From Closterium sp. NIES-65 (Eukaryota > Streptophyta > Zygnematophyceae > Desmidiales > Closteriaceae), in the NCBI GenBank assembly GCA_948144175.1, contig CANXME010002317.1, positions 2,418,001 to 2,482,000 of the forward strand: DNA of 64,000 nucleotides, written 5' to 3'. The position numbers were made by a program, and so were the translations under genes. The notes below the pieces were generated by a model that had not been told where the DNA came from, did not search any database, and was given only the letters and a program-made list of their open reading frames with translations. Positions 1 through 46,439 of this stretch are shown piece after piece (the first letter of the stretch is position 1; the number at the start of each line of letters is the position of its first letter).

Positions 1-1116
1 TCCCTCACCCCCTCCATTCTTCTTTCCAGCACAACCAACCATCCGGTGATGAGTGAAGCAAGGAGGTGCTTGAGGCCTTCTTTCCCCTCCATTCACCTCT
101 GTCCACACTCCCATTCACCCCCCCACCCACCCCCTTTCCATCACTCCCCAGCACAACCATCCATCCGGTGATGAGCTGAGTGCAGCAAGGTGGTGCTGGA
201 AGATTCCTACCCTGCTGCACTCATAAGATTTCTGCCCCATAAACTCTTCCCCTTCCCCTACCGCCTCCCCCACCCGCCCCTATCCATCGCTCCCCAGGAA
301 GTGATGAGCGCAGCAAAGTGGTTTTGAGAATTCTCAAAAACACTCTGCAGCATCAGGAAGTGATGAGCGCAGCAAGGTGGTGCTGAAAGATTTCTACCTT
401 GCTGCACTCAGCTCCATATACTCTTCCCCTACCCCTACCGCCTCCCCCCAACCGCCCTCAATCCATCACTCCCCAGGAAGTGACGAGCGCAGCAAAGTGG
501 TGCTGAAAGATTCCTACCTTGCTGCACTCAGCTCCATATACTCTTCCCCTTCCCCTACCGCCTCCCCCCACCCGCCCCTATCCATCGCTCCCCGGGACGG
601 GATGAGCGCAGCAAAGTGGTGCTTGACGCTCTCTCCTCCATATAGTCCCCCATCCCCCTTTCCCGCCTCCCCCTCAACCCCCCACGCCCGCCCACCTGTA
701 TTTATCTCCCCCCAGGAAGTGATGAGCGCAGCAAAGAGGTGCTGGAAGATTTCTGCCCCATGAACTCTTCCCCTTTCCCTACCGCCTCCCCCTACCCACC
801 CTCTATCTATCCATCTCCCCCCAGGAAGTGATGAACGCAGCAAATAGGTGCTGGAAGATTTCTCCTCCATATCCCCCCCTTCCCCCCCTTCTTCCTCACC
901 CCCTTCTCCCCCCTCTCCCTCACGCGCTTTCCCCCCCACTCCCTCACCCCCGCCGCCTCCCCCTCAACCCTCAACCCCCACCCGCCCCTGTCCATCACTC
1001 CCCAGCAAGTGATGAGCGCAGCAAAGAGGTTCTGGACGCCTTCTTTTCTCGGCAAGGCCGTAGCAGAGGTGTTTTTCCTCCCCTCTACCCCTCCCCCCTC
1101 GTACATCACTCCCCAG
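1..1116 (+). repeat. Array of about 10 partial copies of the start of a coding exon (splice-acceptor side)
   Basis: A unit of roughly 110-120 bp recurs. Each holds a C-rich intron tail with an acceptor-like CCCAG, then the exon start reading SDERSK-(E/V)VL, then C-rich intron again. Copies of the exon start are seen near 45, 165, 297, 357, 476, 596, 716, 827, 1005 and, intact, 1117. Most upstream copies break off within about 30-60 bp of exon sequence or acquire frameshifts; the one at 1005 has an extra T. I read this as serial tandem duplication of the intron/exon boundary of the gene that ends at 2853, not as a separate gene. Confidence 0.8.
322..339. repeat. 18-bp perfect palindrome, core AATT
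   Basis: TTTTGAG, core AATT and CTCAAAA form a perfect palindrome. It sits between two copies of the exon-start repeat, directly after one copy (ending GCAGCAAAGTG) and before the next. It belongs to the family of variable-core palindromes also found in the aconitase introns. Confidence 0.85.
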
Positions 1117-2853: not shown

Positions 2854-2954
2854 GCAGGATCTTGAGGTTGACATGGGGTTCTTCTGGTTAGCAACTGTAC
2901 CTACCGCATGTTATTGGGTGACTGGTGTTTGAAGCCATATCAAAACCCCTCCAC

Positions 2955-3064
2955 TGTCAGAATGAGGAATGGATGTTGCATTGATGTTGGTTGGGGTACA
3001 TATGACAAACCCTAACTTCTGTACCCCCTAACACAAACCTCACTACAGGCTACAACATTCGACA
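2955..3064 (-). repeat. 3' LTR of Copia-1
   Basis: 110 bp, TG...CA ends, matched by the copy at 9993-10102 except at two positions (C/G at the tenth base of the CATATGACAAAC segment and C/G in CCCTAACACA). It is flanked on the left by target duplication TCCAC. Confidence 0.95.
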
Positions 3065-3269
3065 CACCCCCATAGCCTAAGTGAGGGGTGTCTAGCAAAA
3101 ACAAAAAAAGAGTACGGTCACAAGACCAGTCCAAAAGAAAACAAAGCTCAAGGTGGATCACAACGTCACCACACACTCTGAGCACAAGCAACAGTGGCCA
3201 CAAGGCCAGTCCAAGAGATCACAAGTATATATAGTAAGTGTACAGACGAAGCAGGCAATAAACTCAAGT

Positions 3270-6200
3270 CTACGCATGACTAGAACCTGTGTCAACAAGG
3301 CCTAACTGCACACAACACCTCTGGTGGTCACAAGGCGGAAGCGCCTTGGTGAAGATGTCTGCAGTGTTGGCCTCGGACTCTACAAACTCGAAGCGAGCCT
3401 GTCCACGCCTCTGCAACTCTCGCAGAAGAAAGTACCTGACGTGAATGTGCTTCACTCTGCTCTCCAGTCGCGGCTCACGACAGAGGAGGATCGACGCCTT
3501 GTTGTCAGTAAACAAGGTCGGTGCAGAGCTCGGCCGCTCACCAAGGTCGGCGAGCAAGAAGGTCAACCACCGTAACTCCTGTGCCGCCATGGCACCAGCG
3601 TAAATCTCAGCCTCAGCTGTAGAGGTCGAGACAGAAGAGGAGCGCGTGGAACGCCAGGAAACAGCTCCAGAACCCAGACTGAAACAGTACCTCTGAGTAG
3701 ACCTGTGAGTCTCAGCGTCGTCAGCGTAAGAGGAGTCACAGTGACCAGTGAGTACGACAGACTGCTGCCCTCCAAGAACTAGCCCCACGCCTGATGTAGT
3801 CGCTAGGTATTTCGCCACCCTCACAGCTGCCGTCCAGTGAACAGGACGGTGTCTCCCTGGCGCAACAAAGCGCGCAAGGATGCTGAGAGGGAAGGCGAGG
3901 TCCGGGCGAGTACAAGTCATCAGGTACATGAGGCAACCCACAAGCTCTGCGTAGGGACCACTAGGCTCAAACGGCTCGTCAGGAAAGGGACCAGTGAGTC
4001 TGTGGTCAACAGCTAGAGGTGTGCGCTGTACGGTGGAGTGCTGAAGCCCGAACCGCTGAAGGACCTGCTGCACCATGTGTGACTGTGAGAGTGTAATGGT
4101 GCGAGCGGCTCTGTCCCTGGTGATCTGCAGGCCAAGGTAGTGGCGCAGCTCACCAAGATCAGTGCACGTGTGTCTCTTCTGCAGTTCGGACTTCACGTCT
4201 GCCAAAGCAACCCTGTCCGAAGTGGCGAAAACGAGGTCGTCGACGTAGACCAGAACAAAGAACGGTGTGGAGCCACGACGAACGAACAGCGACGGGTCGG
4301 CAGAAGACGGCTGGAACCCAAGGTCAGAGAGGGTAGAACGCAGAGTGTCGTGCCACTCACGAGGGGCCTGGCGAAGACCGTAAACAGGTCGCCTCAGCCT
4401 CCACTGGGTCCCAGGAGGGAAAGTGCCAGTGAAGGCCGAGGGACGACGCAACCAGACCTCCTCGTGTAGGCTGCCCTGAAGGAAAGCAGTGGAGAAGTCG
4501 AGAGAGTGTAACTCGTAGTCTCTCTGTGCTGCTACGTGTAGTAACACCCGAAGAGTGGTCATCTTCGGGGTAGGTGCGAAGGTCTGAAAGAAGTCAACTC
4601 CCTCGCGCTGACTGAAACCTCTAGCCACGTAGCGCGCCTTGAAGACCGAGGGAGATCCCGGTGGCCGCTTCACCCTGTAGATCCACATGCCGTCGACTAC
4701 GTTCGCCCCAGGGGGGGGAACCTCATCGACGTAGGTGCCTGTGGATCTGTAGGAGGCCATCTCTGCGTCCATGGCAGCTCTCCACTGAGAGGCCCAAGGC
4801 CGTGACACTGCCTCAGCGTAAGTGCGAGGAGTCGGAATGTCAAGGGCGTCGGGGTCACCCTCAGGGGCGAGGAGCATGGCACAAAGATGAGGGGAAGCGG
4901 CCGCCAGGAACTCTAGCTCAAACTGCCTGTCCTCTAGGGCGTCACAGCCAAGGGCAGACACACCCCCGACGGCCAGAGGACTGGTAGGAGGAGCAGCCAC
5001 AAGCGTGGTGGCGTAGTCAAGGCGGCGGGTAGAGGCAAAGTCAGTAACTGCGGCAGTAAGAGCGGACACAGAGGACACAGAGGCACGAGGGTGAGTAACA
5101 AGAGAGGCGAGAACACGAGAGAGAACAGGACGGTACGTGCGGTAGTAGTCAGTGACAGGAGTAGGGAGCGACACAGTGAGGGCCGACTCAGGAGGAGACG
5201 GAAGCACAGACTGAGATGGACGAGGTGGACTAGAAAGAAGGAAGGCAGTACGAAGGTCAGTGAAGGGAACAGGAGACGAGGGACGAGCACGAGGGGAGCG
5301 ACGAGTAGCCCAAGAACGAGACGGAGGAGGAGAGGACAAAGGCGGAGAACTGGGGAAAACAGCGGGGGAGGAGTCAGGAGGAGGAAACGTGGGACCGTAG
5401 ACAGGAGGAGAGGCGGAGGAGGGAGGAGAAGGGGAGGGGAGACCAAGGATCCAAAGACCCGAGACAGGAGGAGGAAGTGGCTGCTGCTGCTGCGGCTGCG
5501 ACTGCTGCTGCTGCGGACGCGGCTGCTGCTGGGACTGCTGCTCCTGCGGGTCCAGCTGCTGCTGCTGCTCCTCCAGCCGCTGTAACTCCCTCTCCTCTCT
5601 CTCCAACGCCAGCTGCTCGTCACGGGCACGGCGAACACGAGCCTGGTGCCTAGTCGGGTAGGGGTGGGGGGGTGGAGTAGTGTCCGAAGCAGCGGCAGCT
5701 CCAGAGTCCACCTCAGAAGAACTAGGCGCACCACCCCCAGAGGCAGCACTAACACCAGCTCCAGAACCAGGCTCACCTGAACCCGAAGGAGGCGCACCCT
5801 CACCCCCAGACGCAGCACCCCCAGTGTCCGCGCGGCCAGCACCAGCTCCCGGACAACAAGAGTCCTCTGCACCCACCGGGTCAGCTCCAACTCCAGAACC
5901 AGAAACTCCAGCTCCAACCCCAGCTCCAACTCCAGCACCCCCAGAACCAGAAACTCCAGTGCCAACTCCAGCTCCAACTCCAGCTCCAACTCCAGCACCC
6001 CCAGAACTAGAAACCGGTACAGGAACAGGCGCCGCACCAACCTCTCGAGAGCTAGCACCAGCGGCACGCTGCGAGGAGGACTGTGGGGAGGGAGGCTGTA
6101 CCGGAGGGGCTACCGAAGGAGGAGGGGTAGCCTGGGACACACCTGACGGGGCTGGACCAGGGGGGGGAGGCTGTACCGGGGGAGCAGGAGGGGGAACGGC

Positions 6201-9200
6201 AGTCAGGAAGAGGGGGGGAGGAGGAACCGGGAGACCTCGACTGGGGTACCTGACGTAGTACGGAGTGGACTCCTCGAAACGGACGTCACGGGAGTCAAAG
6301 AACCGGTGAGAGGGAGGGTGGTAAAAGGTGAAGTCAGAGGAGTCCTCAGGGAAACCAAGGAAGACACAGGGGACGGCACGAGGCGAGAGCTTGTCCGCGG
6401 AGGTGTCGCGGACAAGAGCCAAGCACCCCCAGACACGAAACCGCGACGCAACACCAGGGGACCCTGTCCAAAGACTGGTCGGTGAAACCTCTGGTCGAGA
6501 GACACGTGGCCAGAGGTTCAGCTGGTGCGCGGCGTACCTGACCGCGTAGGGCCACAGAAAATGGGGGGCACAGGCGTGAGTCAGGGAGGTGCGGGCGATC
6601 TCCATGACCAGGCCTATGCGGCGCTCAGCAACCCCATTCTGCTGTGGGGACTCTGGAAGCGTCCAGGACTGACGAATGCCCTGCTCGCGACAGAATCCAG
6701 CGAGAATGCCGGAGCGAAACTCACCCCCACGGTCGGAGTGGAGACAGCTGACACGACGACCACGAGTGTCCTCAGTGGTGAGCAACCACCTGATCAGCGT
6801 AGAAGTCACCTCAGACTTCTTTGCCAGAGGGAACACTGTGGTGTAGCGGGAGAAGTCGTCAACTACCACCAGAAAGTAACGCTCACGCTCAGGGCCTAGA
6901 CGAGGGGCTGGGCCCCAGACGTCCAAGTGAAGCGTCTCAAAAGGCTCAGTGGCCGGACGAAGGGAGGAGGAGTGAGGGGTGGCGCGCAGCCTACCCTCGA
7001 CGCAGGGACTACACGGCAGCGCAGGCGAAGGCGGCAGCGACGGCAAGACACGTGGGAGGCCTAGGACAAGACGCTGACTAGACATAGCGCGCAGACGTGG
7101 AAGGGACGGGTGCCCCATCCGGTGGTGCCACAGAACGGTGGGGTGGGCAAGCGACCGGCAGGAGCACGACGCAGCGACTGGAACAGACGTAGGAACCTGA
7201 CACGACACAGACACCTGGGGGGACGTAGCAGCCTGGTGAGACGCGGGGACCCGAACGGGGGGGGGAACCGGGGGCAGTGGCAGTAGGGGGGGCTGCTGCT
7301 GCGGCTGCTGCTGCGGCGCACGCGGGCCAGTGTGAAGAGTGTAGAGACCCGAGCCCGGCTCAGCAGTAAAGGTAGCAAGAGGCTGGTAAGAGTCTCCGTC
7401 AACACACACCGCAGTCTCTCCAGAAGGCTCAAACCACACACCCACGTGCTGACTCACGAGGGGTCGCACGCCCACCAAGTTCCGGGAGAACGAGGGGACG
7501 TGAAACCCAGTGAGAGACCCGGAGGGAGCAGCAGGACACGGTAAAGTGGTAGTGTGACGTGCAGTGACTGGTCCCGTAGTGGGATCAGCCAACGCAACTG
7601 AAACAGGCGCAGGAAGTGGTGTAAGTGTCGTGCTGTCCCGGAAGAAGCAGTGGGAGGCTCCAGAGTCCAGCGTGAACGACAGCGAAGCGTCCTCTGAGGT
7701 AGTCGCTGGTCTAGAGTCTACACAAGAACCTACACTAGCAACAGGCAACTGAGCAAGACTAGCACCTAAGCTAACAACACCAGAGTAAACAGAGTCAGAA
7801 ACACTAGAGTCAACAACAGCATACATAGCATGAGGAGCACTAATCAGATCAACTAACTGCTCAGCAGACATGCCCCACAGAGCGGAGCCGTAGCGCTGAA
7901 CCAGAGGAAGCCAGTCAGGAGCAGGACCGCCAACCCCGTAGGCCAACCGGACCGTGTCAGTGAGCTGAGCAAAGCACTGACCAGGGGGGTGAAAGCGGCC
8001 ACAAGGGTGGCCCCGACGAGGACCTGCCTGAACCTGGTAGGGGCAGGGAGGGTAAGCAGCACCGCGCTGGGGCTGACGCAGCCCCGACCCCGGAGCCAGC
8101 TGCTGACGCTGCTGCTGCTGAGGCTGCTGGGAGGAAAGGGGCTGCTGCTGCTGCTGAAGGTGCTGCTGACGCTGAGCCTGGTACCACGCCGCTGCTCCAC
8201 CTAGCGGGGCCGGCAGTACAGGAGGCGACTGACGAGCTCGAGGGTCGCCGCCACCAGCAGGTGCAGTGGAGTCACCAGCCGCTGCACGAGGGGTCTCTCC
8301 AGACGCTGCACTCCCACCACCGCCAGTCGCAACAGCACCCCCACTACCTCCGCTACCTCCGCCTCCACCTCCACCGGAACCACCTTTCTTGCCCCCCCTG
8401 CCGCGGGACCGCGACGCAGTCGTAACAGCAGCCGCAGTCGCGTCAGTAGCGGCAGTGGCAAGAGAGGCAGTGAAGGTGGGTAACTGCGGGACTGTGCACC
8501 CGTGGAAGAGTGGGGGGGACACAGTACCAGAGGCGGCAGCTACCGAACGAAGGTTGCTCTCGACGTCCTTGAGTGCAGACTCAAGGACCTCGATAGTCAG
8601 CTCACTAGGGTGCTTCAGCAGAAGCGCGTCACGAACGGAGGCAAGGCGGTCAGGGAGGCTAGTGGCGATGAAATAGACAGTAATCGCCATGGGGGGAGGA
8701 AGCAGTGCAAGCTGTGCCTCAGTGCAAGCAGCGCGGTAACTAGCGTCGAGCGAGCGGAGGTGAGCGATCAAGTCAGCAGAGCGCTCAAACGAGGCAAGAT
8801 CAGGAAACAGGAACGGGAGGAAAAGACAGCCAAGAGAGACAGTAGCGGGAGTAGAGTAGCGGGCCTTAATCGCAGTGAGGTACGCAGCAGCGGTGCGAAC
8901 CTGAGTAAAGTGGACCTCCTCGGACTCAGGGAGGAGGCTGCTGAGTGCGATGCAGGCCGCAGCGTCACGCGACGTCCAAGCCGTCCGGTCAGCGCGCTGA
9001 CGGGCAAAGCGAGCCGTAGCAGCGTCGTCAGGAGCAGGGCCTAAAGCGGTAGGCTCGGGGGGCTCGGGGAGGTCACTAGTAGCGTGTGACCAGAGGGTCT
9101 CGCCCCCCTGGACCTGACTCTCTAACAGACGACGAGCGCGAAGAAGCCAGACGGAAAAGTCAAGGGGTCTACCGTCAGCGTCGAAACGAAGAACTCGCGG

Positions 9201-9209: not shown

Positions 9210-9249
9210 AGTGAGAACCAACGCGAACGAACAGGCGAGTAACAACCGG

Positions 9250-9965: not shown

Positions 9966-9992
9966 CACAGGATCCTAACCTAGCTGATACCA

Positions 9993-10102: not shown

Positions 10103-10107
10103 TCCAC

Positions 10108-12709: not shown

Positions 12710-15700
12710 ATGGCGAACCCGTACCAGCGCTTGCTGACCGAGCTGCCGAACCCTGATGGCGGCTCCTTTGGCTCGTATTACAGCCTCCCCGCGCTCAACG
12801 ACCCTCGCATCGGTACTTACTGATACGATCCCTTATGTTTTTTCTTATTTCTTTCGCCAATATATATTCAAACTTCCGTTTTCATGACTCGTTCCACCTG
12901 ATGTCTGTTTCTTTGCCATGCAGATGAGCTGCCAATCTCCATTCGGTATCTTTTGGAGTCCGCCATTCGCAACTGCGATAATTTCCAGGTCATGGAGAAG
13001 GATATCGAAAAGATCCTGGACTGGGCCAACACCTCCCAGCACCAAGTCGAGATCCCGTTCAAGCCTGCGCGTGTCATCCTGCAGGTTCGTACTCGCTTCT
13101 CTCGTGTTGTTCGCCCTTTTTCGTTAAATTTAGTCGAATTTGTCGTCAGATTGCGCCGTGTCGCGTGTTGCATTTCTTTGTGTATCAGGCCTGACGACTT
13201 TGTGTGTGGGAATTTCTGTGCCGTTACTGTTTGATCAGGATTTCACTGGCGTTCCCGCTGTTGTGGACCTTGCTGCGATGAGGGACGCCATGAAGGAGTC
13301 TGGCGGCGATCCGAATGCCATCAACCCTCAGGTGCCGTTCAATGATTGAAACTAATTATGCTGTTTTCTGTTGCTTTGACTCACCTAAGATTCAACATCA
13401 ATTCGGCTCATGCTATCGCTTTTCACGCACATGTTGAACTTCATTAAAGCTGTACCGTTTGAATCTGTGAACTTGCTGCTGGTACGCGCCTAATGTTAAT
13501 TACCGGCTCAATGCCATCCAATTATAGGTGCCTGTAGATCTGGTTGTCGACCATGTTTGCAATGCAGGAGCTTTCATCAACTCTGCAGCCTCCAGCTTTC
13601 CCTCGTTTTGAGAACCTTAGCCCTCATTCAGGTCTCAATTCTGTCCTACCGCAGGTCTCTGTGGATCTTATGATCGTCCTCTCGGTGCAAGTGGATTACG
13701 TAGGGGCGTTCAACGCGGTGAGCCTTCTGAGGCACCTCCAAATCTGTCCAACCCGTCCCTCTATTCCCTCCCCCCCCGCAACCCCCCCCCCCCCCCCCCC
13801 CCCTGCAAACCTCGCCCTTCTCCCCACTCCCCCCACCAGGTGCCAGTGGATCTGGTGATCGGCCACTCGGTGCAGGTGGACTACGGGGGGGTATCCAACA
13901 CGCTGAGCCTTCTGAGGCGCCTTGGAGTCAATTCTGTCCATCCCGCGCTTTCCCTCCCCCCTCTTCCCCTTCCCCTCCTCCCCCCTTTCCCCCACCAGGT
14001 TCCCGTGGATCTGGTGATCGACCACTCGGTGCAGGTGGACTACGCGGGGGCGTCCAACGCGCTGAGCCTCAACATGGAGCGCGAGTTCGAGCGCAACAGG
14101 GAGAGGTTCGCGTTTCTCAAGTGGGGCTCCAAGGCCTTCAGCAACATGCTCGTGGTCCCGCCTGGCGCTGGCATCGTGCACCAGGTGCGTTTTCTGGGTT
14201 TCAAGGTCTTCAGCAACAGGGAGAGGTTCCAAGGTCCTCAAGTGGGGCTCCAAGGAGTTCAGCAACATGCTCGTCGTGCCGCCTGGAGCTGGCATTGTTC
14301 ACCAGGTGCGTTCTCTTGGTTAGCCTGCTCTTTCAGTGGGGTTCTTCGAAGTGCCTGGCGCTGGCATCATGGACCAGCTCAGTGCCTTGCTGATCCCTGG
14401 GGGGGGGGTCTTTCAGGATGTTTTTTGGATTACCTGAAATTGGCATCGAGCACCAGTTAACTGCCCTCGCGGCTTTGGGGGAAAGCTCTCAGGATGGTCT
14501 TTGGAGGACTTGGGGATGGCATCACGCACCAGGTGAGTCTCCTCGAATGACCTGGCCCTGCCATCGTGCATCGGGTGATGGCGCTGGCTGTTTTTGAAAG
14601 GGGCGCTCAGGATGGTTTGTTTGAGTACCTGCTGTTGGCATCATGCACCAGGTGACTTCTCTGGCTTCACCTGATCGCTCGTGATATGTACAGGATTACA
14701 TCACTGGTGGGAAGAATTCATCCCCTTTCTTGCTCACATTGCATTGAGAAAAATGGGCATTGGCAGTGTATGTGCGAAGCGCAGGTGAACCAGCAGTACC
14801 TTGCGCAAGCGGTGGTGATGGTCATCAACAGGCTCCTTTTTTTTTTTCAGAACTCCCTGAAATTTTAGTGACGGTCGCATGTCCCTGCATTGCATGTGCA
14901 GGTGAATCTGGAGTACCTGGCACGGGTGGTGATGGACATCAACGGGCTGCTCTACCCGGACAGCGTTGTTGGCACCGACTCCCACACCACCATGATCGAC
15001 GGGCTCGGCGTCGCAGGCTGGGGCGTGGGGGGCATCGAGGCCGAAGCAGCCATGCTCGGGCAGGCTCTTCAGTTTTCCAGGATTTCCACCAAATAGCACT
15101 GTCGCTTGTTCCTGTGGTGCATGTGCAGGTGAATCTGGAATATCTCGCACGGGTGGTGATGGACATCAACGGGCTGCTCTACCCCGACAGCGTTGTCGGC
15201 ACCGACTCCCACACCACCATGATCGACGGGCTCGGCGTCGCAGGCTGGGGCGTGGGGGGCATCGAGGCCGAAGCAGCCATGCTCGGGCAGGCCATGAGCA
15301 TGGTCCTCCCGCAAGTCGTGGGCTTTAAGCTCACGGGAAAACTCCAGCCGGGAGTTACTGCCACGGACCTCGTCCTCACGTGTACGCAGATGCTGAGGAA
15401 GCACGGCGTGGTGGGGAAATTCGTGGAGTTTTACGGGGAGGGGACGAGGGAGCTGTCTCTGGCGGACCGGGCGACGGTGGCGAATATGTCGCCAGAGTAC
15501 GGGGCGACGATGGGGTTCTTTCCTGTGGATTCAGTGACGCTGCAGTATCTGAGGGTGACCGGGAGGGATGAGACGAAGCTGAAGCAGATTGAGACGTACA
15601 TGCGCGCGAACAATCTGTTCATGGACCATACCACTGTGAGTTGACAATCTTTTGTTTCAGCTGTGTATGCTGATTAGCACGGGGAGGGGACGAGGGAGCT

Positions 15701-18700
15701 GTCTCTGGCGGATCTGGCGACGGTGGCGAATATGTCGCCTGAGTACGGGGCGACGATGGGGTTCTTTCCTGTGGATTCGGTGACGCTGCAGTATCTGAGG
15801 GTTACCGGGAGGGATGAGACGAAGCTGAAGCAGATCGAGATGTACATGCGCGCGAACAATCTGTTCATGGACCATACCACTGTGAGTTGACAATCTTTTG
15901 TTTCAGCTGTGTATGCTGATTAGCACGGGGAGGGGACGAGGGAGCTGTCTCTGGCGGACCGGGCGACGGTGGCGAATATGTCGCCAGAGTATGGGGCGAC
16001 CATGGGGTTCTTCCCGGTGGATTCGGTGACGCTGCAGTACTTGAGGGTTACGGGGAGGGATGAGACGAAGCTGAGGCAGATTGAGGCGTACATGCGCGCC
16101 AACCACCTGTTCATGGACCATGCAACCGTGATTTTGACTGTAGCTTCTCAAATTTGCATGCTGATCAGCCTAAACACCCCATCATGGACCATGGCACTGT
16201 GACAGGCATGTCTCATTGGCTCACCTGCAATCTACTCCCCTGCACCTTCCCCCCAGCACCTTCTCCCCTGCACCTTCCCCCCTGCACCTTCCCCCCTGCA
16301 CCTTCCCCCCTGCACCTTCCCCCCTGCACCTTCTCACCTGCACCTTCTCACCTGCACCTTCCCCCCTGCACCTTCCCCCCAGCACCTTCCCCCCTGCACC
16401 TTCCCCCCTGCACCTTCCCCCTTGCACCTTCTTTCCTGCACCTTCTCACCTGCACCTTCTCACCTGCACCTTCTCACCTGCACCTTCTATCTTCATCCTG
16501 ATTCAGCGCATCTGCCTGTGTCTTTCTGTGGATCCTTGCGTGTATCACCTCTCCCCGCCAGGCTGGTGTGTTTAGAGTCGACTCAAAACCCACCTGCACC
16601 TTCTACCTCCATCCTGATTCAGCGCGTTTGCCTGTGTCTTCCCTGTGGATCCTTGTGTGCATCACCTGTTTCCCCCCCAGGCCAGAAAGGCAGACTTATG
16701 AGTTGACTCAAAAGTCAACGTCTACCTTCGTCCTGATTCAACGCGTTTGCCTCTGTCTTCCCCGTGGATCCTTGCGTGCATCACCTTTTCCTACCCCAGG
16801 TTGGAGAGGCGGAGGCCAAGTGCAAGTACTCGCCCTCCTTGGAGCTAGGCCCTGCTACTGTGGAGCCCTGCGCCTTTGGAGAACATACCTCTTAAAGTAT
16901 CCTCCGTATTGCCCTTTTATCCTTGCTTTTCCTGTCATCCGTGTCATCTGTGTCATCTACCAGGCTGGAGAGGCGGAGGCCAAGCGCAAGTACTCGTCCT
17001 ACTTGGAGCTAGACCTCGCCACGGTGGAGCCCTGCGTCTCTGGACCCAAGAGGTGGGGGCGACGTGGCTTTCTAAACCCAGGAAACGAGCAAGCAATATC
17101 ACTGCTCAATTTGTTGTTTTCATCATGCATGAGTGCTCCGCCATCTCTAATTGTTCTCCTTCTCCTGTTGATGCGCCTCTTCCCCTTCCCCTCATTGTAT
17201 TTCCCGTGGCTGGTTACCTGCTTTGCTTGGTTCCTTGCAGGCCGCATGACCTTGTTGACTTTTGAGTCGACTTTTGAGTGGAGTTGACTTTCGAAAAGTT
17301 TTCCCCTTCCCCTCACTCTATCTCCCGTGGCTGGCTGGTTACCTGCTTTGCTTGGTTCCTTGCAGGCCGCATGACCGAGTGACTTTGAAGACCATGAAGT
17401 CCGACTGGCACGCTTGCCTCGACAACCCTGTCGGTTTCAAGGCAAGTCTCTTCATCATTCCAGCACGTCTCTTTCATGTTCCCACCTAGCCCTCTTCCCA
17501 ATCTCAAACCCATCACCTACACTAGTAGTGACTGTGCTATGCTGTCCCGTTTCTACCCAACTTCATGCCCTCGCCCATCCCCAAGGCTTTGCCATTCCCA
17601 ACGCGCTGCAGGGCAAGGCAGTGAAGGTGCTGCTAAACCCTAGACAAAGTGGAATCCGAGCTGGTGCACGGCTCTGTTGCTGTCATCGCCGCCATCACCT
17701 CCTGCACCTCCTGCACCAACACGTCCAACCCGTCTCCTCCTTGTGCCCCTGTGCTGTGCCCTCTCTCCATTTCCCCAGGGTTTTGCTATCCCTAAGGCCC
17801 AGCAGGGCAAGGCAGTGAAGGTGCTGCTAAACCCTAGACAAAGTGGAATCCGAGCTGCTGGTGCACGGCTCTGTTGTTGTCATCGCTGCCATCACCTCAT
17901 GCACCAACACGTCCAACCCCTCCTTGTGCCTGTCTCTTGCCTCAACTTCCCTGTAGGTGACTGACTGACTGTGCTGTTTCTGCCTCTACCCCACTCACTG
18001 CCCTCTCCCGTCCACAGGGCTTCGCCATCCCCAAGGCGCAGCAGGACAAGGCAGTGAAGGTGACTCTCAAGGAAGGGGCGGAGTGTGAGCTGAAGCACGG
18101 ATCCGTGGTCATTGCTGCCACGTCAACCCCTCCTTGTGCCTGTGCTGTGCTCTCTCTCCATTTCCACAGGGCTTCGCGATCCCTAAGGCCCAGCAGGACA
18201 AGGCAGTGAAGGTGACTCTCAAGGAAGGGGTGGAATCCGAGCTGAAGCACGGATCCGTGGTCATTGCTGCCATCACCTCCTGCACCAACACGTCCAACCC
18301 GTCGGTGATGCTGGCGGCAGCGATCGTGGCGAAGAAGGCGAGTGAGAGGGGGCTCCAGGTGAAGCCGTACGTGAAGACGAGCCTGGCCCCTGGCTCCAAC
18401 GTCGTCACCAAGTACCTGGAGGCCAGGTGAGGGGGGCCGGTGGCTGTGTGCTGTTCCTGGTTAGCCAGGGGGTTCTGGGTTTATGCAAGGGGGCGTAGGT
18501 GATGCTGGCGGTAGCCATTGTGGCGAAGAAGGCGAGTGAGAGGGGGCTGCAGGTGAAGCCGTATGTGAAGACGAGCCTGGCGCCTGGCTCCAACATCGTC
18601 ACCAAGTACCTGGAGGCCAGGTGAGAGGGGTTTAGGGTTGGGGTCTTTGGGGTTGTGTTTCCAGTCAGAAGGTTCTGGGTTTAGGCAAGGGTGTAAGTAA

Positions 18701-21700
18701 GGAAGCATCTAGCTGCAGCATAGGGAGAATGAAAGGGGGCTCCAGGTGAAGCCATACGTGAAGACGAGCCTGGCCCCTGGGTCCAACGTCGTCATCAAGT
18801 ACCTCGAGGCCAGGTGAGGAGCTCGGGTTGTGTGTTCCTGGTAGGAAGGTTCTGGGTTTATGCAATTGGCTGAAGGAAGGAAGCATCTGGCAGCAACATA
18901 GACAGAACCCGTCACTTACGCCTGCATTTTATGCTTCGAGAACCGACCCACTTTTTGCGCTTCCTTCTGTTGATTTTCCCCTCTCTCTGCAGTGGCATCC
19001 TCCCGGCTCTCGAGTGTCATGGCTTGCTCGTGGTGAATTTTGCTGCACCACGTGCAATGGGAGCTCATTCTGCCTCTTTTCTTTCCTCCTCTCCGTCTTT
19101 GTTTCCCTCGTTCCTCTCTCTGTGTGCAGTGGTCTTCTCCCAGCTCTGGAGGGGCAGGGCTTCCACGTGGTGGGCTATGGCTGCACCACGTGCATTGGGA
19201 ACTCAGCCATCCTCTGGACCCTCCTCCTCTTGATCCTTATTTCCCCCTATCTTTGTGCAGTGGCCTCCTGCCAGCTCTGGAGGGCCAGGGCTTCCACGTG
19301 GTGGGCTATGGCTGCACCACGTGCACTGACTCATAACCCTCCGCTCCCTCTACCCGCCTTTCCTCCTCTTCCCTCTCTTTTATGCAGTGGACTCCTGCCA
19401 GCTCTGGAGGGCCAGGGCTTCCACGTGGTGGGCTATGGCTGCACCACGTGCACTGACTCATAACCCTCCGCTCCCTCTACCCGCCTTCCCTCCTCTTCCC
19501 TCTCTTTTATGCAGTGGACTCCTGCCAGCTCTGGAGGGCCAGGGCTTCCACGTGGTGGGCTATGGCTGCACCACGTGCATTGGGAACGCATGCGTCTCCT
19601 TTCCCTTTTCTCTCCTTCCCTCCTCTCTCTTGTGTCTTCAGTGGCCTCCTCCCGGCTTTGGAGGGCCAGGGCTTTCACGTGGTGGGCTATGGCTGCACAA
19701 CGTGCATTGGGAACTCGGGGGAGATTCACGAGGCCGTTGGACAGGCCATCGCTGACAACGGTATGTTCAGCAGTGGCATACCCTACAGAGGCCCAAGCTA
19801 GAGTTCATCTCATCTATTCCTACTCATGCTTTCCGATAAGCATATCCGGATAACGCCACGTGCATTGGGAACTCGGGGGAGATTCACAAGGCCGTTGGAC
19901 AGGCCATTGCTGACAACGGTACGTATGCCACGGTTGACGCTGAAAGGGTGTAGCCTGGCAATTATCTTGGCAAAAAACTGCTCTCTCACGTACATCCATT
20001 CACCAGAGCCCATTTTGAGACGTCTCAAAACTGCTCTCTCACGTGCATCCATTCACCAGAGCTAACCTCTTCTCTCACTTCCCCCCTTCCCCCTCTGTTT
20101 CTTCTGTCCCTCTACACAACATCGGGCCTGGTGGCTGCAGCGGTACTTCCTGGTAACCACAACTTCGAGGGTCGCTTTCATCTTCTCACTCGGACTGACT
20201 TTTGAGAATTCTCAAAAGTCATTCCAATATGGCTGCAGTGGTACTTCCTGGTAACCACAACTTCGAGGGTCGCATTCATATTCTCACTCGGACCAAACCC
20301 TCCTCCCTTCTCTCTTCCCTTCAACCCACACATCAACAGACCTTGTCGCAGCAGCAGTGCTGTCTAGTAACCACGACGTTGGGGGCTGTGCCCATCCTCT
20401 TACCCAAGCCTACCCTCCTTCCTTTTCCCTTCGCTGTTTCCCCCCTTCTCTTCCCCTCCATCTCGCCCACGAATCAACAGACCTGGTGGCGGCAGCGGTG
20501 CTGTCCGGTAACCGTAACTTTGAAGGGCGTGTGCATCCCCTCACCCGAGCCAACTACCTTGCATCCCCGCCCCTCGTCGTGGCATACGCGCTTGCTGGCA
20601 CGGTGAGTAGAATGTGCTACTGTCATGGGTGTATGCCTTTGTTCCCCTCACCCGAGCCAACTACCTTGCATCCCCGCCCCTCGTCGTGGCATACGCGTTT
20701 GCTGGCACGGTGAGTAGAATGTGCTACTGTCATGGGTGTATGCCTTTGTTCCCCTCACCCGAGCCAACTACCTTGCATCCCCGCCCCTCGTCGTGGCATA
20801 CGCGCTTGCTGGCACGGTGAGTAGAAAGTGCTACTGTCATGGGTGTATGCCTTTGTTCCCCTCACCCGAGCCAACCACCTTGCATCCCCGCCCCTTGTCG
20901 TGGCATACGTGCTTGCTGGCACGGTAAATTCAGATTGCTTTCTGGCTGGTGGCTGGAATTCATGCTGTGTCGTTGTCAGAAACAACCCTTGTTAGAATCA
21001 ACTGTCTACCTTGCATCCCCGTCCGCCGCCGCGGCATAGCTTTTGCTGGCATGGTAGGTGTTCAGCTGGCTTACTGTTTCTCCTGTATCACTCCCCTTTA
21101 TTGTCACACGCGCCCATGTTTCTTTCGTTCATTACATGACCACAATTTCTCAGGTGGACATTGACTTTGAGACGGAGCCCATCCGCGCGGACGAGGGTGT
21201 GAAGAGGTGTTTCTGAAAGACGTTTTCCTTCCCTTCCACATGCACATGGTTCATTCATTCACAACATGACAATCTTGCCATTCCTCCCCTTTTTCTTTTT
21301 TGCGTGCATGGTTCCTCCATCCATCACATGACCACATTCTCAGGTGGACATTGGCTTCGAGACGGAGCCAATCAGCACGGACGAGGGTGTGAAGAGGTGT
21401 TTCTGAAAGACGTTTTCCTTCGCTCCCACATGCACATGGTTCATTCACATCATGACAATCCTCACAGGTGGACATTGACTTCGAGGCGGAGGTTATTGGC
21501 ACGGACAAGGACGGCAAGGAGGTGTTCCTCCGAGACATCTGGCAACATAAGCCGCACCAGGCCCTACCAAACGTCTCCCCTCTTTCTCCCCTGCACGTGT
21601 TGTCAATTCACATCATGACCACATTCTCAGGTGGACATTGACTTTGAGACGGAGCCCATCGGCACTGACAAGGACGGCAAGGAGGTGTTTCTGAGAGACA

Positions 21701-24700
21701 GAGACATGTGTCTAACATAAGCCCCACCAGGCCCAACAGATCGCCTCCTCTCATCCCCCCTCCTCTCGTTCCCCCCTGTGCACATGTTTCATTCATCCAT
21801 CTCAGGTGGACATTGACTTTGAGACGGAGCCCATCGGCACTGACAAGGATGGCAAGGAGGTGTTTCTGAGGGACATCTGGCCCAGCAAGGAGGAGGTGGC
21901 CGAGGTGCGTGCATCTGAACTGAATCTGAGGCGTGTGTAATTTTTACATGAATGGAGAGCCTACAAGGCAGGTTTGAGGCGCCTCTGTAAGTGTTGTCAC
22001 CAACGCCCTGTCCCCTGCTTCCTCCCCTAGTTTCCAATCCATATTTGCTAAAACGTCCAACCCTGGCCCCTTCAGCTGCAGTTTTTCCAGTCGGTGGACA
22101 AGGCGGTGAAGGAAGGCGCCACCAACGCCCCCATCAACCCCTCAACACCCCTCTGTTCCCTATCATCACCCCTTTATCCCATCAAACCTGATTCTTAAAC
22201 CCTGGCAGGTGGTGGAGAGGGCGGTCCTCCCACAGTTCTTCCAGTCAGTCTACAAGGCAGTGAAGGAGGGCACCACCAACGCCCTCTGGAACCCCTGACC
22301 ACCCCTCTTACTCCTATTTTTACCATTGTGAATCACTAAATCCTTCTCCAGGTGGTTGAAAGGGCGGTTCTCCCTCAGTTCTTCCAGTCAGTCTACAAGG
22401 CAGTGAAGGAGGGCGCCACCAACGCCCTCTGGAACAGCCTGCCTGCGGAGAACGAGCCTCTGTACCGCTGGGAACCGTTCTCCACCTACATCCACGACCC
22501 GCCCTACTTCAAGAACTTCCCCCGCGACCCCCCTGGTGGCAAGGACGTAAAGGACGCCTTCTGCCTGCTCAACGTGGGCGACTCCATCACCACCGATCAT
22601 ATTTCCCCTGCAGGTGGGTGCTTGGAAGAGTGTATGTGTTTGAGAGTGTGGTACACGTGTGTCTACAGTGAGGGTTGGCGTTGTGGGTTGTGGGGTGGCA
22701 AGGACGTGAAGGACGCCTTCTGCCTGCTCAATGTGGGCGACTCCATCACCACCGACCACATCTCCCCTGCAGGTGGGTTTTGTTTTGCGACCCCTCTCTT
22801 CCTCCCTCTCCTCTTCCTCCCTCTCCTCTTCCTCCCTCTCCTCTTCCTCCCTCTCCTCTTCCTCCCTCTCCTCCACCTACATCCACAACCCGCTCTACTT
22901 CAAGAGCTTCCCCCGCAACCCCCCTGGTGGCAAGGACGTGAAGGACGCGTTCTGCCTGCTGAATCTCGGGGAAAAGACTTCAACTCGTATGGTAGCAGGC
23001 GGGGCAATAACGAGGTCATGACTCGTGGCACGTTTGCCAACACCTCTGTCCCCAACTCCCACCCTGTCCTCCCTTCTGTGCTGCTCCCTGTGCGACTCGT
23101 TGGGCACCCCCCTCTGCCTCCCCTCCTCCCATCACACCAGGGAGCATCCACAAGGACAGCGCTGCAGCCAAGTATCTCACAGAGAGAGGCGTTGCTAGGA
23201 AGGACTTCAACTCGTACGGCAGCAGGCGGGGCAACGGCGAGCTGGCATTGTAGGGCGACCCTTCCTCCACCTCTCCTCCCACGTCCTCCCTCCCATCACA
23301 CCAGGGAGCATCCACAAGGACAGCGCTGCAGCCAAGTATCTCACAGAGCGTGGAGTGGCACGCAAGGACTTCAACTTGTACGACAGCAGGCGGGGCAACG
23401 ACGAGGTCATGACTCACATCCTTGGGGTGTATTTTGAGGCGCCACAAAATGCATGACTCACATCCTTGGGGTGTATTTACAGGCGCCTCAAAATACATGA
23501 CTCACATCCTTGTCCACAATTTCCACCCTCTCCACCCCCCCTCCCGTGCTCCAGGAAGCATCCACAAGGACAGTGCTGCAGCCAAGTACCTCACAGAATG
23601 GGGCGTGGCGCGAAAAGACTTCAACTCGTATGGCAGCAGGTGGGGCAACGACGAGGTCATGACCCGCGTGTGCACTTCCTCGTGCGCCTCCCTCTGGTCC
23701 CCCCCCCCCTGTGCTGCTCCAGGGAGCATCCACAAGGACAGTCCTGCAGCAAGGTATCTCACAGAAAGGGGCGTTCCCAGGAAGGATTTCAACTCATATG
23801 GCAGCAGGCGGGGCAACGACGAGGTCATGACTCGCGGCACGTTCGCGAATATCCGGCTGGTGAACAAGCTTGCGGGAGGAGAGGTGGGACCCAAGACGGT
23901 GCATTTGCCCTCTGGAGAGAAGATGAGTGTCTTCGATGCTGCCATGGTGAGTGGACAGGGTTATTAGCAGATTGTAACAGGGTTACCAGCTAGAAGGGGC
24001 ACGTTTGCCAACATCCGGCTGGTGAACAAGCTGGCAGGCAGGGAGGTGGGACCCAAGACGGTGCACCTGCCCTCAGGGGAGAAAATGAGCGTCTTTGATG
24101 CTGCCATGGTGAGTCGAGATAGGGTTAGTGTGAGGGAGGAATAGGGTTACCAGCACGCTGGTGAACAAACTGGCAGGCCGGGAGGTGGGACCCAAGATGG
24201 TGCACCTGCCTTCTGGAGAGAAGATGAGCGTCTTCGATGCTGCCATGGTGAGTGGGGTTGCTAGGGTGTAACAGGGTTACCACCAGGAGCTGGAGATAGG
24301 GCTATCAGCAGGAAAGATGGGCACACTTACTGTCTCTTTCGACCTCACTGTCACACTCACACTCACTGTCACTGTCACTGTCCAATGTATGCCTTAACTG
24401 TATGTGTCTTTGCTCCCTTCTTTTGCCCGTGAGCAGAGGTACAAGGCGGAGGGTTATCCCACCATTGGCTGGCAGGGGCGGAGTATGGAAGCAGCTTGTA
24501 TGTCTGTCACACTCACACTCACTGTCACTCTCGTCTCCAATGTGTGCCTGCATGTGTCTTTGCTCCCTCTGTGAGTCCATGAGCAGAGGTACAAGGCAGA
24601 GGGACATCCCACGATAGTCCTGGCAGGGGCGGAGTATGGAAGCGGCTCTTCCCGTGACTGGGAGTGTGATTGTCCCTGTTATTAATGGGTCTGTTTGCCT

Positions 24701-26606
24701 GTCTGTTCGTCTGTATGTGTGTCTCCCTCTCCCTCTGTGTGTCCATGAGCAGAGGTACAAGGCGGAGGGCCATCCCACCATTGTGCTGGCAGGGGCGGAG
24801 TATGGAAGCGGCTCTTCCCGTGACTGGGCTGCCAAGGGACCGTATCTGCAGGTATGGCAATGCGATGCGAGGGTGTGCCTGTGTGTGTGCGTGTGTGCAC
24901 GCAAGGGAGTGTGTCAAGAGACAGTATTTGCAGGTGTTTAGCATGTAAGGGCATAAACGCAAGTGCTCATACGTGCTTACAAAGGCTAGGAAATCAAGTT
25001 TGTCAAGCTGAACTGGAGAGTCCGGAATCAGACTGGCATGAGGGATCATTCCCCCCTGCTTTATCCCCCTCAATTGCCATCCTCCCATCCTGTTTCCTTG
25101 GTCTCACTGCGTCCTCTCTGTTTCACCTCATCCCAGGGTGTGCGAGCCGTCATCTCTGTTTCCTTTGAGCGCATCCACTGCAGCAACCTGGTGGGGATGG
25201 GCATCATCCCGCTCTGCTTCAAGCCCCTCACCAAGCTCCCTCACTCTTGCCACCACCTTTTCTGCCTTGTCATACACACCTACAGGGAGTGCGGGCGGTG
25301 ATCTCCGTCTCATTCGAGCGCATTCACCGCAGCAACCTGGTGGGGATGGGCATCATCCCGTTGTGCTTCAAGCCCGGCCAAAACGCCGAGACGCTGGGGC
25401 TCACCGGCAAGGAGCGCTTCTCCTTCTCCCTGCCGCCGGTGGATCAGATCCAGCCCGGGCAGGACGTGGTGGTTTCCACGGACAACGGAAATTCGTTTAC
25501 CTGCACGCTGCGCTTTGATACTGAGGTGAGCACGACTGGCCGCGCTTCGATTCTGAGATGACAAGAGGATTCTCCTTCTCCCTGCCGCCGTTGGATCAGA
25601 TCCAGCCCGGGCAGGACGTGGTGGTTTCCACTGACACTGGGAAGAGCTTCACCTGCACCCTGCGCTTCGACACAGAGGTGAGAATCAGAGTCACCAAGGG
25701 TCTGTCTACATGTATAGGCCTAAGGAAGGGGAGGCAGGGAGCAATTCTCCTTCTCGCTGCCGTCGGTGGATCAGATTCAGCCCACAAAACATAACGGTTT
25801 CCACGGACAACGGAAAGTCGTTAACCTGCACGCTGCGTTTTGATACTGAGGTGAGCACGACTGGCCGCGCTTCGATTCTGAGATGACGAGAGGATTCTCC
25901 TTCTCCCTGCCGCCGGTGGATCAGATCCAGCCTGGGCAGGACGTGGTTGAGTCAACCGACAACGGCAAGTCGTTTACCTGCATGCTGCGCTTCGACACGG
26001 AGGTGAGTACCGTAGCCACGCAGAGTATACATGTGAAGGCCCGCAGGGAAGGAGGTGGGGGTTGGTAGTGGATTCTCCTTCTCGCTGCCGCCGGTGGATC
26101 AGATCCAGCTCGGTCAAGACGTGGTGGTTTCCACCGATTGTGGAAGTCGTTCACCTGCACCCTGCGCTTCGACACGGAGGTGAGCCGTGGAAGCACACAA
26201 GGTGTACATGTACAGACAATGAGGGTATGCGCCAAGCAGGCAAGCAGTCATGAAGGACTTTTGAGGCGCCTCAAAAGTCGCTTTCGACACAGAGGTGAGC
26301 CGTGGAAACCGATGAGGTGTACATGTACAGGCAATGAGGGTATGAGCCAAGCAGGCAAGCAGTCATGAAGGCAGAGAGTGCTTTTTTGTCTCCCTGTCGC
26401 CAGTGGATCGGATCAAGCCTGGCCACGCACAACGTGGATATGACTAAAAGTGAACCGAATCTTCCAAGTCAAAGTTGGTCTTGATGTTTCCGTGGTTTCT
26501 TTCTCCTGCTGTGCTGTGCGTGCAGCTCGAAAAGGCCTACTACAATCACGGGGGCATTCTGCACTTTGTGCTGCGTCAACTGCTGGCCAAGTCCACTGCT
26601 GCTTGA
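12710..26606 (+). CDS. ACO: Aconitate hydratase, cytosolic/IRP1 type, 16 exons
   Basis: Intact exons: 12710-12812, 12924-13084, 13239-13331, 13999-14184, 15129-15635, 16964-17052, 17366-17441, 18170-18426, 19642-19760, 20481-20602, 21806-21904, 22352-22613, 23723-23946, 24753-24851, 25286-25525 and 26526-26606. They join in phase to 2718 nt (905 residues), the usual size of plant aconitases without presequence. The enzyme isomerises citrate and isocitrate through a [4Fe-4S] cluster. The cluster cysteines are in exon 8 ([10 protein letters not shown]) and exon 9 ([12 protein letters not shown]). Active-site motifs are GTDSHTT (exon 5), YGSRRGN (exon 13) and [14 protein letters not shown] (exon 14). 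All introns are GT-AG except intron 7, which begins GC. Exons 4-15 are flanked by tandem partial copies, listed separately. Where several copies of a boundary exist I chose the one that continues into a complete exon. Confidence 0.93.
13528..13998 (+). repeat. Three decayed acceptor-side copies of aconitase exon 4
   Basis: Acceptor plus exon start (V-PVDLV...) recurs at 13528, 13655 and 13840 before the intact exon at 13999. Copies share the sequence up to GCGCTGAGCC-like ends and then run into CTTCTGAGGCGCCT and an ATTCTGTCC motif. A poly-C tract lies at about 13782-13802. Confidence 0.85.
14185..14665 (+). repeat. Donor-side copies of aconitase exon 4 (at least five)
   Basis: The exon end (PGAGIVHQ before GTGCGT) recurs. 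The best copy is 14211-14306. More decayed ones lie near 14355-14378, 14438-14456, 14512-14532, 14550-14575 and 14632-14652, each ending in a CACCAG|GT-like sequence. Confidence 0.75.
14776..15128 (+). repeat. Acceptor-side copies of aconitase exon 5
   Basis: A decayed copy starts near 14786 and runs into a poly-T tract. A near-perfect copy (14902 to about 15061, [10 protein letters not shown] to EAAMLGQA) has its own TGTGCAG acceptor but no following donor. The intact exon begins at 15129 after an identical acceptor context. Confidence 0.85.
15636..16205 (+). repeat. Donor-side copies of aconitase exon 5
   Basis: Exon sequence from [11 protein letters not shown] to MDHTT, with the following GTGAGTTGACAATC intron start, recurs at about 15680-15885 and 15926-16130. 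A short fourth fragment (ATGGACCATGGCACTG) lies at 16184-16200. The third copy has lost the donor consensus (GTGATT). Confidence 0.85.
16238..16492 (+). repeat. 14-bp minisatellite in aconitase intron 5
   Basis: About 18 units of TGCACCTTCCCCCC, drifting to TGCACCTTCTCACC at the right end. Confidence 0.9.
16571..16588. repeat. Palindrome, core TCGA, one arm mismatch
   Basis: TTTAGAG, TCGA, CTCAAAA. It lies just after a CAGGCTGG exon-6 start fragment, at the junction of two 115-bp repeat units. Confidence 0.7.
16693..16716. repeat. 24-bp imperfect palindrome, core TTGA
   Basis: Arms GACTTATGAG and CTCAAAAGTC with one mismatch. The core TTGA is one transition away from TCGA. It occupies the same place in the next 115-bp unit. 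Confidence 0.7.
17236..17365 (+). repeat. Acceptor-side copy of exon 7 with palindrome half-sites
   Basis: CCTTGCAG|GCCGCATGACC occurs at 17241-17251 and again as the intact exon start at 17366. Between them, at 17254-17299, are two head-to-tail copies of ACTTTTGAGT separated by CG and a further GAGTTGACTTTCGAAAAG. These are half-sites of the palindrome family rather than a clean palindrome. Confidence 0.65.
17583..18169 (+). repeat. Three acceptor-side copies of aconitase exon 8
   Basis: Copies of the exon start ([14 protein letters not shown]) lie at about 17586, 17779 and 18018 before the intact exon at 18170. The first two continue into a shared variant (CTGCTAAACCCTAGACAAAG) and then into decayed [10 protein letters not shown] sequence. 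The third stops after HGSVVIAA. Confidence 0.85.
18427..18820 (+). repeat. Two donor-side copies of aconitase exon 8
   Basis: Exon end sequence ([27 protein letters not shown] to KYLEA) recurs at about 18500-18620. A shorter piece recurs at about 18733-18814. Both end in AG|GTGAG. The intron segment GGTTCTGGGTTTATGCAA repeats with them. Confidence 0.85.
18993..19641 (+). repeat. Five acceptor-side copies of aconitase exon 9 (iron-sulphur exon)
   Basis: Acceptor plus TGG-C exon start lies at 18994 (decayed), 19130, 19261, 19389 and 19515 before the intact exon at 19642. The later four encode an intact [19 protein letters not shown] segment, then leave the exon within a few codons without a matching donor. 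Two units are near-identical with 126-bp spacing. Confidence 0.9.
19853..19925 (+). repeat. Donor-side copy of aconitase exon 9
   Basis: CCACGTGCATTGGGAACTCG to GCTGACAACG followed by GTACGT. It matches the end of exon 9 with a few substitutions. Confidence 0.85.
19974..20062 (+). repeat. Direct repeat flanking a palindrome in intron 9
   Basis: An approximately 35-bp sequence (CTGCTCTCTCACGT-CATCCATTCACCAGAGC) occurs twice. The palindrome at 20013-20030 lies exactly between the copies. Confidence 0.85.
20013..20030. repeat. 18-bp perfect palindrome, core ACGT
   Basis: TTTTGAG, ACGT, CTCAAAA. It lies at the junction of a tandem duplication in aconitase intron 9. Confidence 0.9.
20130..20480 (+). 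repeat. Three acceptor-side copies of aconitase exon 10
   Basis: Exon start ([20 protein letters not shown]) recurs at about 20129, 20227 and 20340 before the intact exon at 20481. The copies carry substitutions relative to the functional [10 protein letters not shown] sequence. Confidence 0.85.
20196..20221. repeat. 26-bp perfect palindrome, core AATT
   Basis: Eleven-base arms (TGACTTTTGAG and its complement) around AATT. It lies between the first and second exon-10 copies, whose shared sequence ends CACTCGGAC just before it. It is the longest perfect member of the family. Confidence 0.92.
20603..21055 (+). repeat. Donor-side copies of aconitase exon 10, 107-bp units
   Basis: The exon end ([21 protein letters not shown]) and intron start GTGAGTAGAATGTGC repeat with exact 107-bp spacing at 20603, 20710 and 20817. 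A more decayed copy lies at about 20996-21054. Confidence 0.92.
21154..21805 (+). repeat. Four acceptor-side copies of aconitase exon 11
   Basis: CTCAG|GTGGACATTG-like starts occur near 21154, 21344, 21469 and 21631 before the intact exon at 21806. The first two share a frameshifted end (GGTGTTTCTGAAAGACG). The others keep DKDGKEVFL. Confidence 0.88.
21973..21988. repeat. Decayed palindrome, core GCGC
   Basis: TTTGAG, GCGC, CTC, then TGTAA. It sits inside what looks like a remnant of an exon-12 copy (CTACAAGGCAG before it, CACCAACGCC after it). Confidence 0.55.
22070..22351 (+). repeat. Two acceptor-side copies of aconitase exon 12
   Basis: A decayed copy lies at about 22075-22140 ([17 protein letters not shown]). 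A better one begins at 22210 ([21 protein letters not shown]). The intact exon begins at 22352. Confidence 0.85.
22614..23041 (+). repeat. Donor-side copies of exon 12 and an exon 12/13 chimera
   Basis: Exon 12 end ([26 protein letters not shown]) recurs at 22694-22772 with a donor. After a CTCTTCCTCCCT repeat tract, a second piece (22873 to about 22970) runs from STYIHNP to CLLNLG. It then joins directly, without an intron, to exon-13 sequence [12 protein letters not shown] to FAN (about 22974-23041). Confidence 0.8.
23431..23450. repeat. 20-bp palindrome, core GCGC, one mismatch
   Basis: ATTTTGAG, GCGC, CACAAAAT. It separates two copies of the CATGACTCACATCCTTGGGG repeat. Confidence 0.8.
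23473..23496. repeat. 24-bp palindrome, core GCGC, two mismatches
   Basis: Arms GTATTTACAG and CTCAAAATAC around GCGC. It lies between the second and third copies of the same repeat. Confidence 0.75.
23947..24250 (+). repeat. Two donor-side copies of aconitase exon 13
   Basis: Exon end sequence recurs at about 23999-24109 ([14 protein letters not shown] to FDAAM) and 24158-24247 (LVNKLAG to FDAAM), both followed by GTGAGT. Confidence 0.9.
24437..24752 (+). repeat. Two acceptor-side copies of aconitase exon 14
   Basis: GAGCAG|AGGTACAAGG starts at 24437 and 24587. They extend to EYGS and to SRDW respectively before diverging. The intact exon begins at 24753. Confidence 0.9.
25137..25285 (+). 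repeat. Acceptor-side copy of aconitase exon 15
   Basis: GGTGTGCGAGCCGTC to CTTCAAGCCC ([30 protein letters not shown]) after CCCAG. It then leaves the exon. The intact exon begins at 25286. Confidence 0.9.
25526..26360 (+). repeat. Donor-side copies of aconitase exon 15 (four good, one remnant)
   Basis: The exon end ([19 protein letters not shown] to LRFDTE) recurs at about 25565-25678, 25738-25851, 25890-26002 and 26070-26180. A last 18-bp remnant lies at 26281-26295. All are followed by GTGAG. The copies differ by substitutions and small indels. Confidence 0.9.
26256..26279. repeat. 24-bp perfect palindrome, core GCGC
   Basis: Arms GACTTTTGAG and CTCAAAAGTC around GCGC. It lies exactly between two copies of an approximately 90-bp repeat that starts TTTCGACAC-GAGGTGAGCCG and ends GCAGTCATGAAG. 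Confidence 0.92.
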
Positions 26607-46373: not shown

Positions 46374-46439
46374 GTAGAAGCAGGAGCAGGACTAGCAGCA
46401 GGAAGGCAGGCAGCCAGGTAAGCCAAAAGGCAAGCAGGC

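Follow-up and report, generated by a model that had tools for sequence, protein, structure and literature searches.

Short palindromes set between direct target duplications in Closterium: a candidate family of ultra-short mobile elements

The palindromic repeats of Volvox carteri organelles are short (14–79 nt in plastid DNA), non-coding and present in many copies, and they are regarded as selfish (PMC2670323). In fungal mitochondria, double-hairpin elements, ultra-short invasive elements and palindromic repeats have been described in a report that also refers to works on Allomyces and Podospora, and these palindromes are present or absent between related species and linked to nearby indels (PMC7218506). 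Moreover, tandem duplications formed at staggered breaks by fill-in are an established repair outcome in other systems (PMC8355091).

The palindrome family of Closterium described here has in common with the Volvox repeats that it is short, non-coding and present in many copies, and that it shows a recurrent central motif and nested insertions (PMC2670323). With the fungal mitochondrial palindromes it shares the short length and a presumed mobility (PMC7218506). However, the Volvox repeats are organellar, their nuclear copies being considered inert transfers, whereas the Closterium family is nuclear by its surroundings. The Volvox hairpins have loops of 3–5 nt, mostly TAAA/TTTA, whereas the Closterium palindromes have a self-complementary core, and the main text of the Volvox paper never uses the word "duplication", whereas the Closterium family leaves long target duplications (PMC2670323). 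The fungal palindromes are mitochondrial, those of Fusarium being runs of A and T, and "duplicat" is absent from the main text of that report (PMC7218506). Small tandem duplications at staggered breaks, in which the overhang sets the duplication length before end joining, correspond to what is proposed for Closterium (PMC8355091 and the plant paired-nick work cited there), but no recurrent insert is reported for these systems there, whereas the filler in Closterium is one sequence family. As expected of staggered-break repair, the family shows a direct duplication of variable length with filler or microhomology at the junction.

MITEs are non-coding, have inverted arms and a target duplication and reach thousands of copies. 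In contrast to them, the Closterium family has no interior, its longest form seen is 54 bp and its duplication is not fixed in length. It has the symmetrical arms of terminal-inverted-repeat (TIR) elements, including a CACGTG-N12-TTTTGAG arrangement in copies with an ACGT core, and it lacks the fixed duplication of TIR transposons and MITEs (16–89 bp in Closterium). The nearest known kinds are the Volvox organelle palindromic repeats and the fungal mitochondrial palindromic elements. A sequence-only reading of the locus had known of no described element of such form, and in the open-licence literature we likewise found no description of the family under Closterium palindromes, short nuclear palindromic elements or tandem-duplication fillers, nor any occurrence of any of its four 18-mers.

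The whole 64,000-nt stretch of DNA (the window) was scanned for TTTTGAG-N4-CTCAAAA at no more than two mismatches and compared with shuffles. Nine matches were obtained, where 0.21 were expected and the largest shuffle gave two. Four were exact (322, 20013, 20200 and 26259), three had one mismatch (16571, 16696 and 23432) and two had two mismatches (23476 and 13725). Apart from 13725, the matches with mismatches are decayed members. The match at 13725 was rejected as a family member, since it shows no duplication and reads as aconitase coding sequence. Nine of the ten places named in the sequence-only reading stand (Table 1), the half-sites given at 17254 being part of a complex insert between two copies; the tenth, 21973, is no member, only the 10-mer GAGGCGCCTC, a 10-base palindrome without flanking duplication. 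All nine members lie between tandem copies, as had been proposed, not always exactly so: up to about 14 extra bases occur on one side, and an indel at 16571 interrupts the ungapped match. Within positions 1–26,500, every palindrome with an arm score of at least 8 belongs to the family (4/4).

Table 1. Palindromes of the family and the host-gene frame in the window, with the flanking direct copies of target DNA (D)
Feature	Position	Strand	Context
Palindrome, core AATT, exact	322..339	.	insert 323-353; D copies 295-322 / 354-381
Palindrome, core TCGA, 1 mismatch	16571..16588	.	between first and second copy of a ~115-bp repeat; ungapped core 16475-16531 / 16591-16647
Palindrome, core TTGA (= TCGA after one transition), 1 mismatch	16696..16713	.	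D 16602-16681 / 16721-16800
Complex 49-nt insert, two TTTTGAG units, core TCGA	17252..17300	.	between D copies, ungapped core 17191-17251 / 17316-17376
Palindrome, core ACGT, exact	20013..20030	.	D 19974-20009 / 20027-20062; 4-nt AAAA microhomology
26-bp perfect palindrome TGACTTTTGAG-AATT-CTCAAAAGTCA	20196..20221	.	D 20132-20195 / 20230-20293
Palindrome, core GCGC, 1 mismatch	23432..23449	.	first of two in D-P-D-P-D array 23408-23512, period 44
Palindrome, core GCGC, 2 mismatches	23476..23493	.	second copy in D-P-D-P-D array 23408-23512
24-bp perfect palindrome GACTTTTGAG-GCGC-CTCAAAAGTC	26256..26279	.	D 26168-26256 / 26283-26371
Open frame of host aconitase gene	14748..15641	+	Pfam PF00330, E 9.1e-67

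Every window member except the one at 322 is housed in the aconitase gene, which, read from its frames, extends over roughly 13–26.5 kb; the palindrome at 20200 breaks into an aconitase exon copy by the same reading. In this gene (window 13000–26500) many tandem partial exon copies occur, and most of their junctions are without palindrome. The transposon block of the window contains none of the nine matches, in agreement with the sequence-only reading. Frames resembling Copia-type retrotransposons were read at 3270–9284, 41052–46391 and 48942–54947 (RVT_2 by Pfam in 48942–50591) and Gypsy-type ones at 32516–35440 and 56583–58796, and Pfam places a DDE_Tnp_4 transposase frame at 61470–62393. 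The best protein matches of a retrotransposon frame of the window are from Closterium, one of them being 93% identical along the full query. Neither Rfam nor tRNA scans gave a match in the window.

The scan of the whole assembly (874,075,685 bases in 2,400 contigs) revealed 30,327 exact places of TTTTGAG-N4-CTCAAAA, against 4 places for the reversed-pattern control in the same genome, far above chance. With a spacer of 5 in place of 4 only 76 matches were found, and a chance origin of the palindromes is ruled out by this count together with the window shuffles and the reversed control. The arm also stands out in the sampled sequence, where among 7-base arms at spacer 4 TTTTGAG was the most frequent with 11 occurrences, followed by an arm with 4; at other spacers, other arms reached up to 17, presumably as local repeats. 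The palindromes measure 18 to about 54 letters. The family is nuclear as judged by its surroundings, since the window copies are set in or near an intron-bearing aconitase gene close to LTR-type and transposase frames and some copies sit on contigs that measure from 2 to more than 5 Mb; additional organelle copies are possible. The TCGA form was found on 4 contigs of a 257-Gb prokaryote collection, and a search of viral contigs gave no match to it.

The core was self-complementary in 46 of the 50 first-listed genome places (TCGA 22, ACGT 12, GCGC 10, AATT 2; four non-palindromic), so that no unpaired hairpin loop of 3–5 nt is left in these 46. The earlier statement that the core differs and is nevertheless self-complementary is thus largely borne out, except that the core does not vary freely, these 46 being restricted to four kinds. 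Genome-wide, TCGA (13,080), GCGC (5,851) and ACGT (5,047) together account for 23,978 of the 30,327 exact places. TCGA, GCGC and ACGT are unlike in the outer pair, and ACGT and AATT are unlike in the inner pair. Among the 50 sites tested for duplications, the non-palindromic cores TTGA, TCAA, ACAT, GCAC and AATC occurred once each; each is one change away from a palindromic core, four of the five by CpG-type transitions, as expected from decay after insertion. The cores seen represent four lineages rather than free variation. The arms differ between sites and are tied to core lineage, three of the four lineages having characteristic arms. TCGA arms continue outward mostly as GTCA(C/A)C, AATT arms for example as GTCACTC or ACAC.CTGC, GCGC arms are mostly short, and a longer form of ACGT copies ends in CACGTG, 12 bases outside the box. 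Beyond the boxes, the two arms of a site stay symmetrical for 3.1 bases on average (36 exact sites), compared with 0.78 when arms are paired across sites.

The usual unit is D-P-D, in which a direct copy of target DNA (D) stands on each side of the palindrome (P). In our anchored test, two direct copies had to end and begin no more than 35 bases from the palindrome, with a score of at least 16. The sample consisted of 20, 12 and then 6 short stretches around first-listed places, taken from the first contigs listed and with dense arrays left out, and of 28 stretches of 10 kb (22 chosen blind to sites, 6 as neighbours of matches), altogether about 0.04% of the genome. Fifty exact sites with at least 60 known bases per side were tested, of which the first 32 short stretches contributed 39, the 10-kb stretches 7 and the window 4. 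They are not fully independent, since two palindromes share an array or insert at L025, L035, L049 and L050; L033 and L056 sit in tandem repeats. Direct copies flanked 42 of the 50 sites compared with 83 of 600 random positions, 14% of which pass because the genome is repeat-rich. In the 42 passing sites D ranged from 16 to 89 bp without a fixed length. Four of the failing sites have a short D of 11–16 bp (L009:3287, L042:267, L044:301 and L057) and four showed no clear D in this test (L018:9169, L030, L038 and L043:301). Four of six further ACGT sites passed the same score when the reach was extended from 35 to 45 bases.

A gapped and less anchored test gave 32 of 49 sites compared with 193 of 2000 random positions. 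It was stricter than the loosest test (score at least 12 anywhere), which was discarded, since it passed 623 of 1000 random positions along with 49 of the 50 sites. Flanking copies were found at 9 of 11 family members, compared with 2 of 13 other palindromes that are similarly strong and are not A/T-only runs; these two lie in one tandem array, and a further one gave a weak match (E 0.8). Substitutions are independent between D copies and palindromes. The D pairs are sometimes completely identical (L037 60/60, L041 23/23 and L069 41/41), which indicates that insertion is recent or ongoing. In the exon array that contains 322, two neighbouring units are empty sites, without second D and without palindrome, so that insertion and duplication were one event.

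The inserts of the anchored-test sites are mostly 17–64 nt long, and element ends are often truncated, with microhomology. Of 88 sides, 31 were informative for a microhomology test, being shorter than the other side and agreeing with it, and on 20 of these D opens with the base that would come next in the opposite arm (shuffles averaged 8.6 and reached at most 18 in 2000). The outer edges of D showed no motif or base preference, no base exceeding 0.38 (32 sites, both edges pooled). The variability of D, the arm microhomology and the absence of a base preference at these outer edges point to break repair with microhomology rather than to a rigid integrase. The sequence-only proposal is partly supported: that the duplications are marked by insertion or break repair agrees well with the joint origin at 322, the duplications in the anchored test and the microhomology at D edges, whereas its hairpin step is hypothetical.

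In the family unit, a palindrome whose core is self-complementary and whose arms measure at most about 25 bp each is set between two target copies. With slightly better than even confidence, we interpret these units as mobile, non-coding palindromes of very small size that form a new family in Closterium and would be copied from existing palindromes into staggered breaks. Two offset nicks would expose overhangs of length D, which would become two D copies once filled in. While they are being joined, the ends might anneal by a few bases to an arm of an existing palindrome elsewhere and then copy this arm. The symmetry about the core could arise either when one end copies across the self-complementary centre, or when both ends copy one arm each and are then joined through the 4-base core. 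Every insertion could then serve as a new template and an enzyme of its own would not be required, though one may exist, the palindrome being preferred as filler, as we assume, through its self-complementarity. This explanation is weakened by the expectation that templated insertion in general would copy other sequences too.

A bolder form of this explanation, which we put forward only tentatively, is that of a gene-free and perhaps enzyme-free replicator, a palindrome that multiplies as the favoured filler at staggered breaks, the ends being joined via the core. If each end copies one arm and both are joined through the core, the core may vary by lineage and would still stay self-complementary; the ends would be truncated independently, and most sampled insertions would lie within a target duplication.

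The outer box of the ACGT copies bears on a different explanation, in which the palindrome is a DNA transposon reduced to its terminal inverted repeats, i.e., two ends fused back to back (TTTTGAG box, 12-base linker, outer CACGTG) and mobilised by a transposase whose gene lies elsewhere. Five of 28 sides of ACGT copies have CACGTG at offset 12, the remaining sides being truncated or without box, and the half-element GACGTCTCAAAA-N12-CACGTG has 1,120 genome matches compared with 0 for the control. Forty-nine of the 84 linkers listed are distinct; these have C at position 6 in 94% of cases and T at position 7 without exception, with G being rare. A transposon of this kind would show conserved boxes kept at a constant distance by linkers of variable sequence, as is the case here. 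The near-complete element L048, a 53-nt insert between identical 19-bp D copies, begins with CACGTG directly at the D edge, and the window itself contains the DDE_Tnp_4 frame. The fixed 12-base distance of the outer box hints at a protein that recognises the element. However, TIR transposases give a target duplication of fixed length, whereas D is variable at the 42 passing sites, and the frequent truncation of the ends with microhomology also speaks against this origin, which we consider unlikely.

The hexamer, the variable 12-base linker and the A-rich box of the ACGT copies have a layout that resembles the heptamer-12-nonamer arrangement of Transib ends and of the recombination signals in V(D)J joining, which could likewise point to a protein binding the element. 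A host-templated fold-back, resembling the opening of P-nucleotide-like hairpins, was considered for L048 and rejected: the arm CACTCCTTCTTT-CACGTG recurs at many listed places, which indicates that it belongs to the element and is not folded-back host DNA. The long arm at 322 is likewise likely to be element rather than fold-back, to judge from the resemblance of its right arm to the AATT copy at L025:194. At L042 the arm may be a fold-back, and its linker occurs once among those listed.

Insertion through RNA is less probable still. A small hairpin RNA with the motif would be copied into nicked DNA by LINE-type machinery. In its favour, target-primed insertions show variable duplications, truncation and microhomology at one junction. 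However, the inserts of the anchored-test sites have no constant 3' poly-A or simple-repeat tail, the D edges have no preferred base, and a self-complementary core is unexpected for the loop of an RNA.

We give slightly less credit again to the idea that the palindrome predates the duplications, being a fragile or protein-binding site around which they formed later. It could appeal to D-P units that amplify into arrays, as in the run of 11 copies at spacing 42 on C21 (C21:1006431-1006868). A palindrome present beforehand would, however, be copied together with D (D-P-D-P) or stay outside, whereas the usual unit has one palindrome between two D, and the two sibling units at 322 lack both the D duplicate and the palindrome. 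That the structures are assembly or library artefacts (adapter dimers, chimeric reads) is extremely improbable: template switching in libraries can give such palindromes at duplicated junctions, but it would have to account for a copy number of 30,327, for four cores and the arms linked to them, for the independent substitutions in D copies and palindromes, and for the window matches where only 0.21 are expected.

If the preferred explanation of copying into staggered breaks is true, a single genome would preserve staggered-break repair in tens of thousands of datable instances, whose filler, duplication length and age could all be read, and the mechanism of small tandem duplication could be studied at scale without inducing breaks. 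Ultra-short selfish palindromes would then be not only organellar but also include an active nuclear family, and one route to internal duplications in the genes of close land-plant relatives would be known.

Most of the tandem duplications here are not marked by the palindrome. Of 40 near-tandem structures (gap 12–90) collected from the sampled sequence without regard to the motif, 6 carry it, although the filters of this list missed some true sites, e.g., 20013 and 23432; 33 are without palindrome and the remaining one was a false flag of the search expression. The palindrome was accordingly rejected as driver of all exon-copy arrays, and the earlier suggestion that it seeds these arrays finds no support. 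Insertions do seem to seed minisatellites, and besides the run on C21, palindromes follow each other at constant spacing at C6:131439-131668 (53), C18:9243-9638 (63) and C277:792827-793051 (39). Concatemer inserts were found at L009:5028-5097, L059 and L053. Other palindromes within near-tandem repeats, outside the family, occur at L023:7016-7083 and L004:3183-3239 (GCCACTAGTGGC; CGCCACTGGCGCCAGTGGCG twice).
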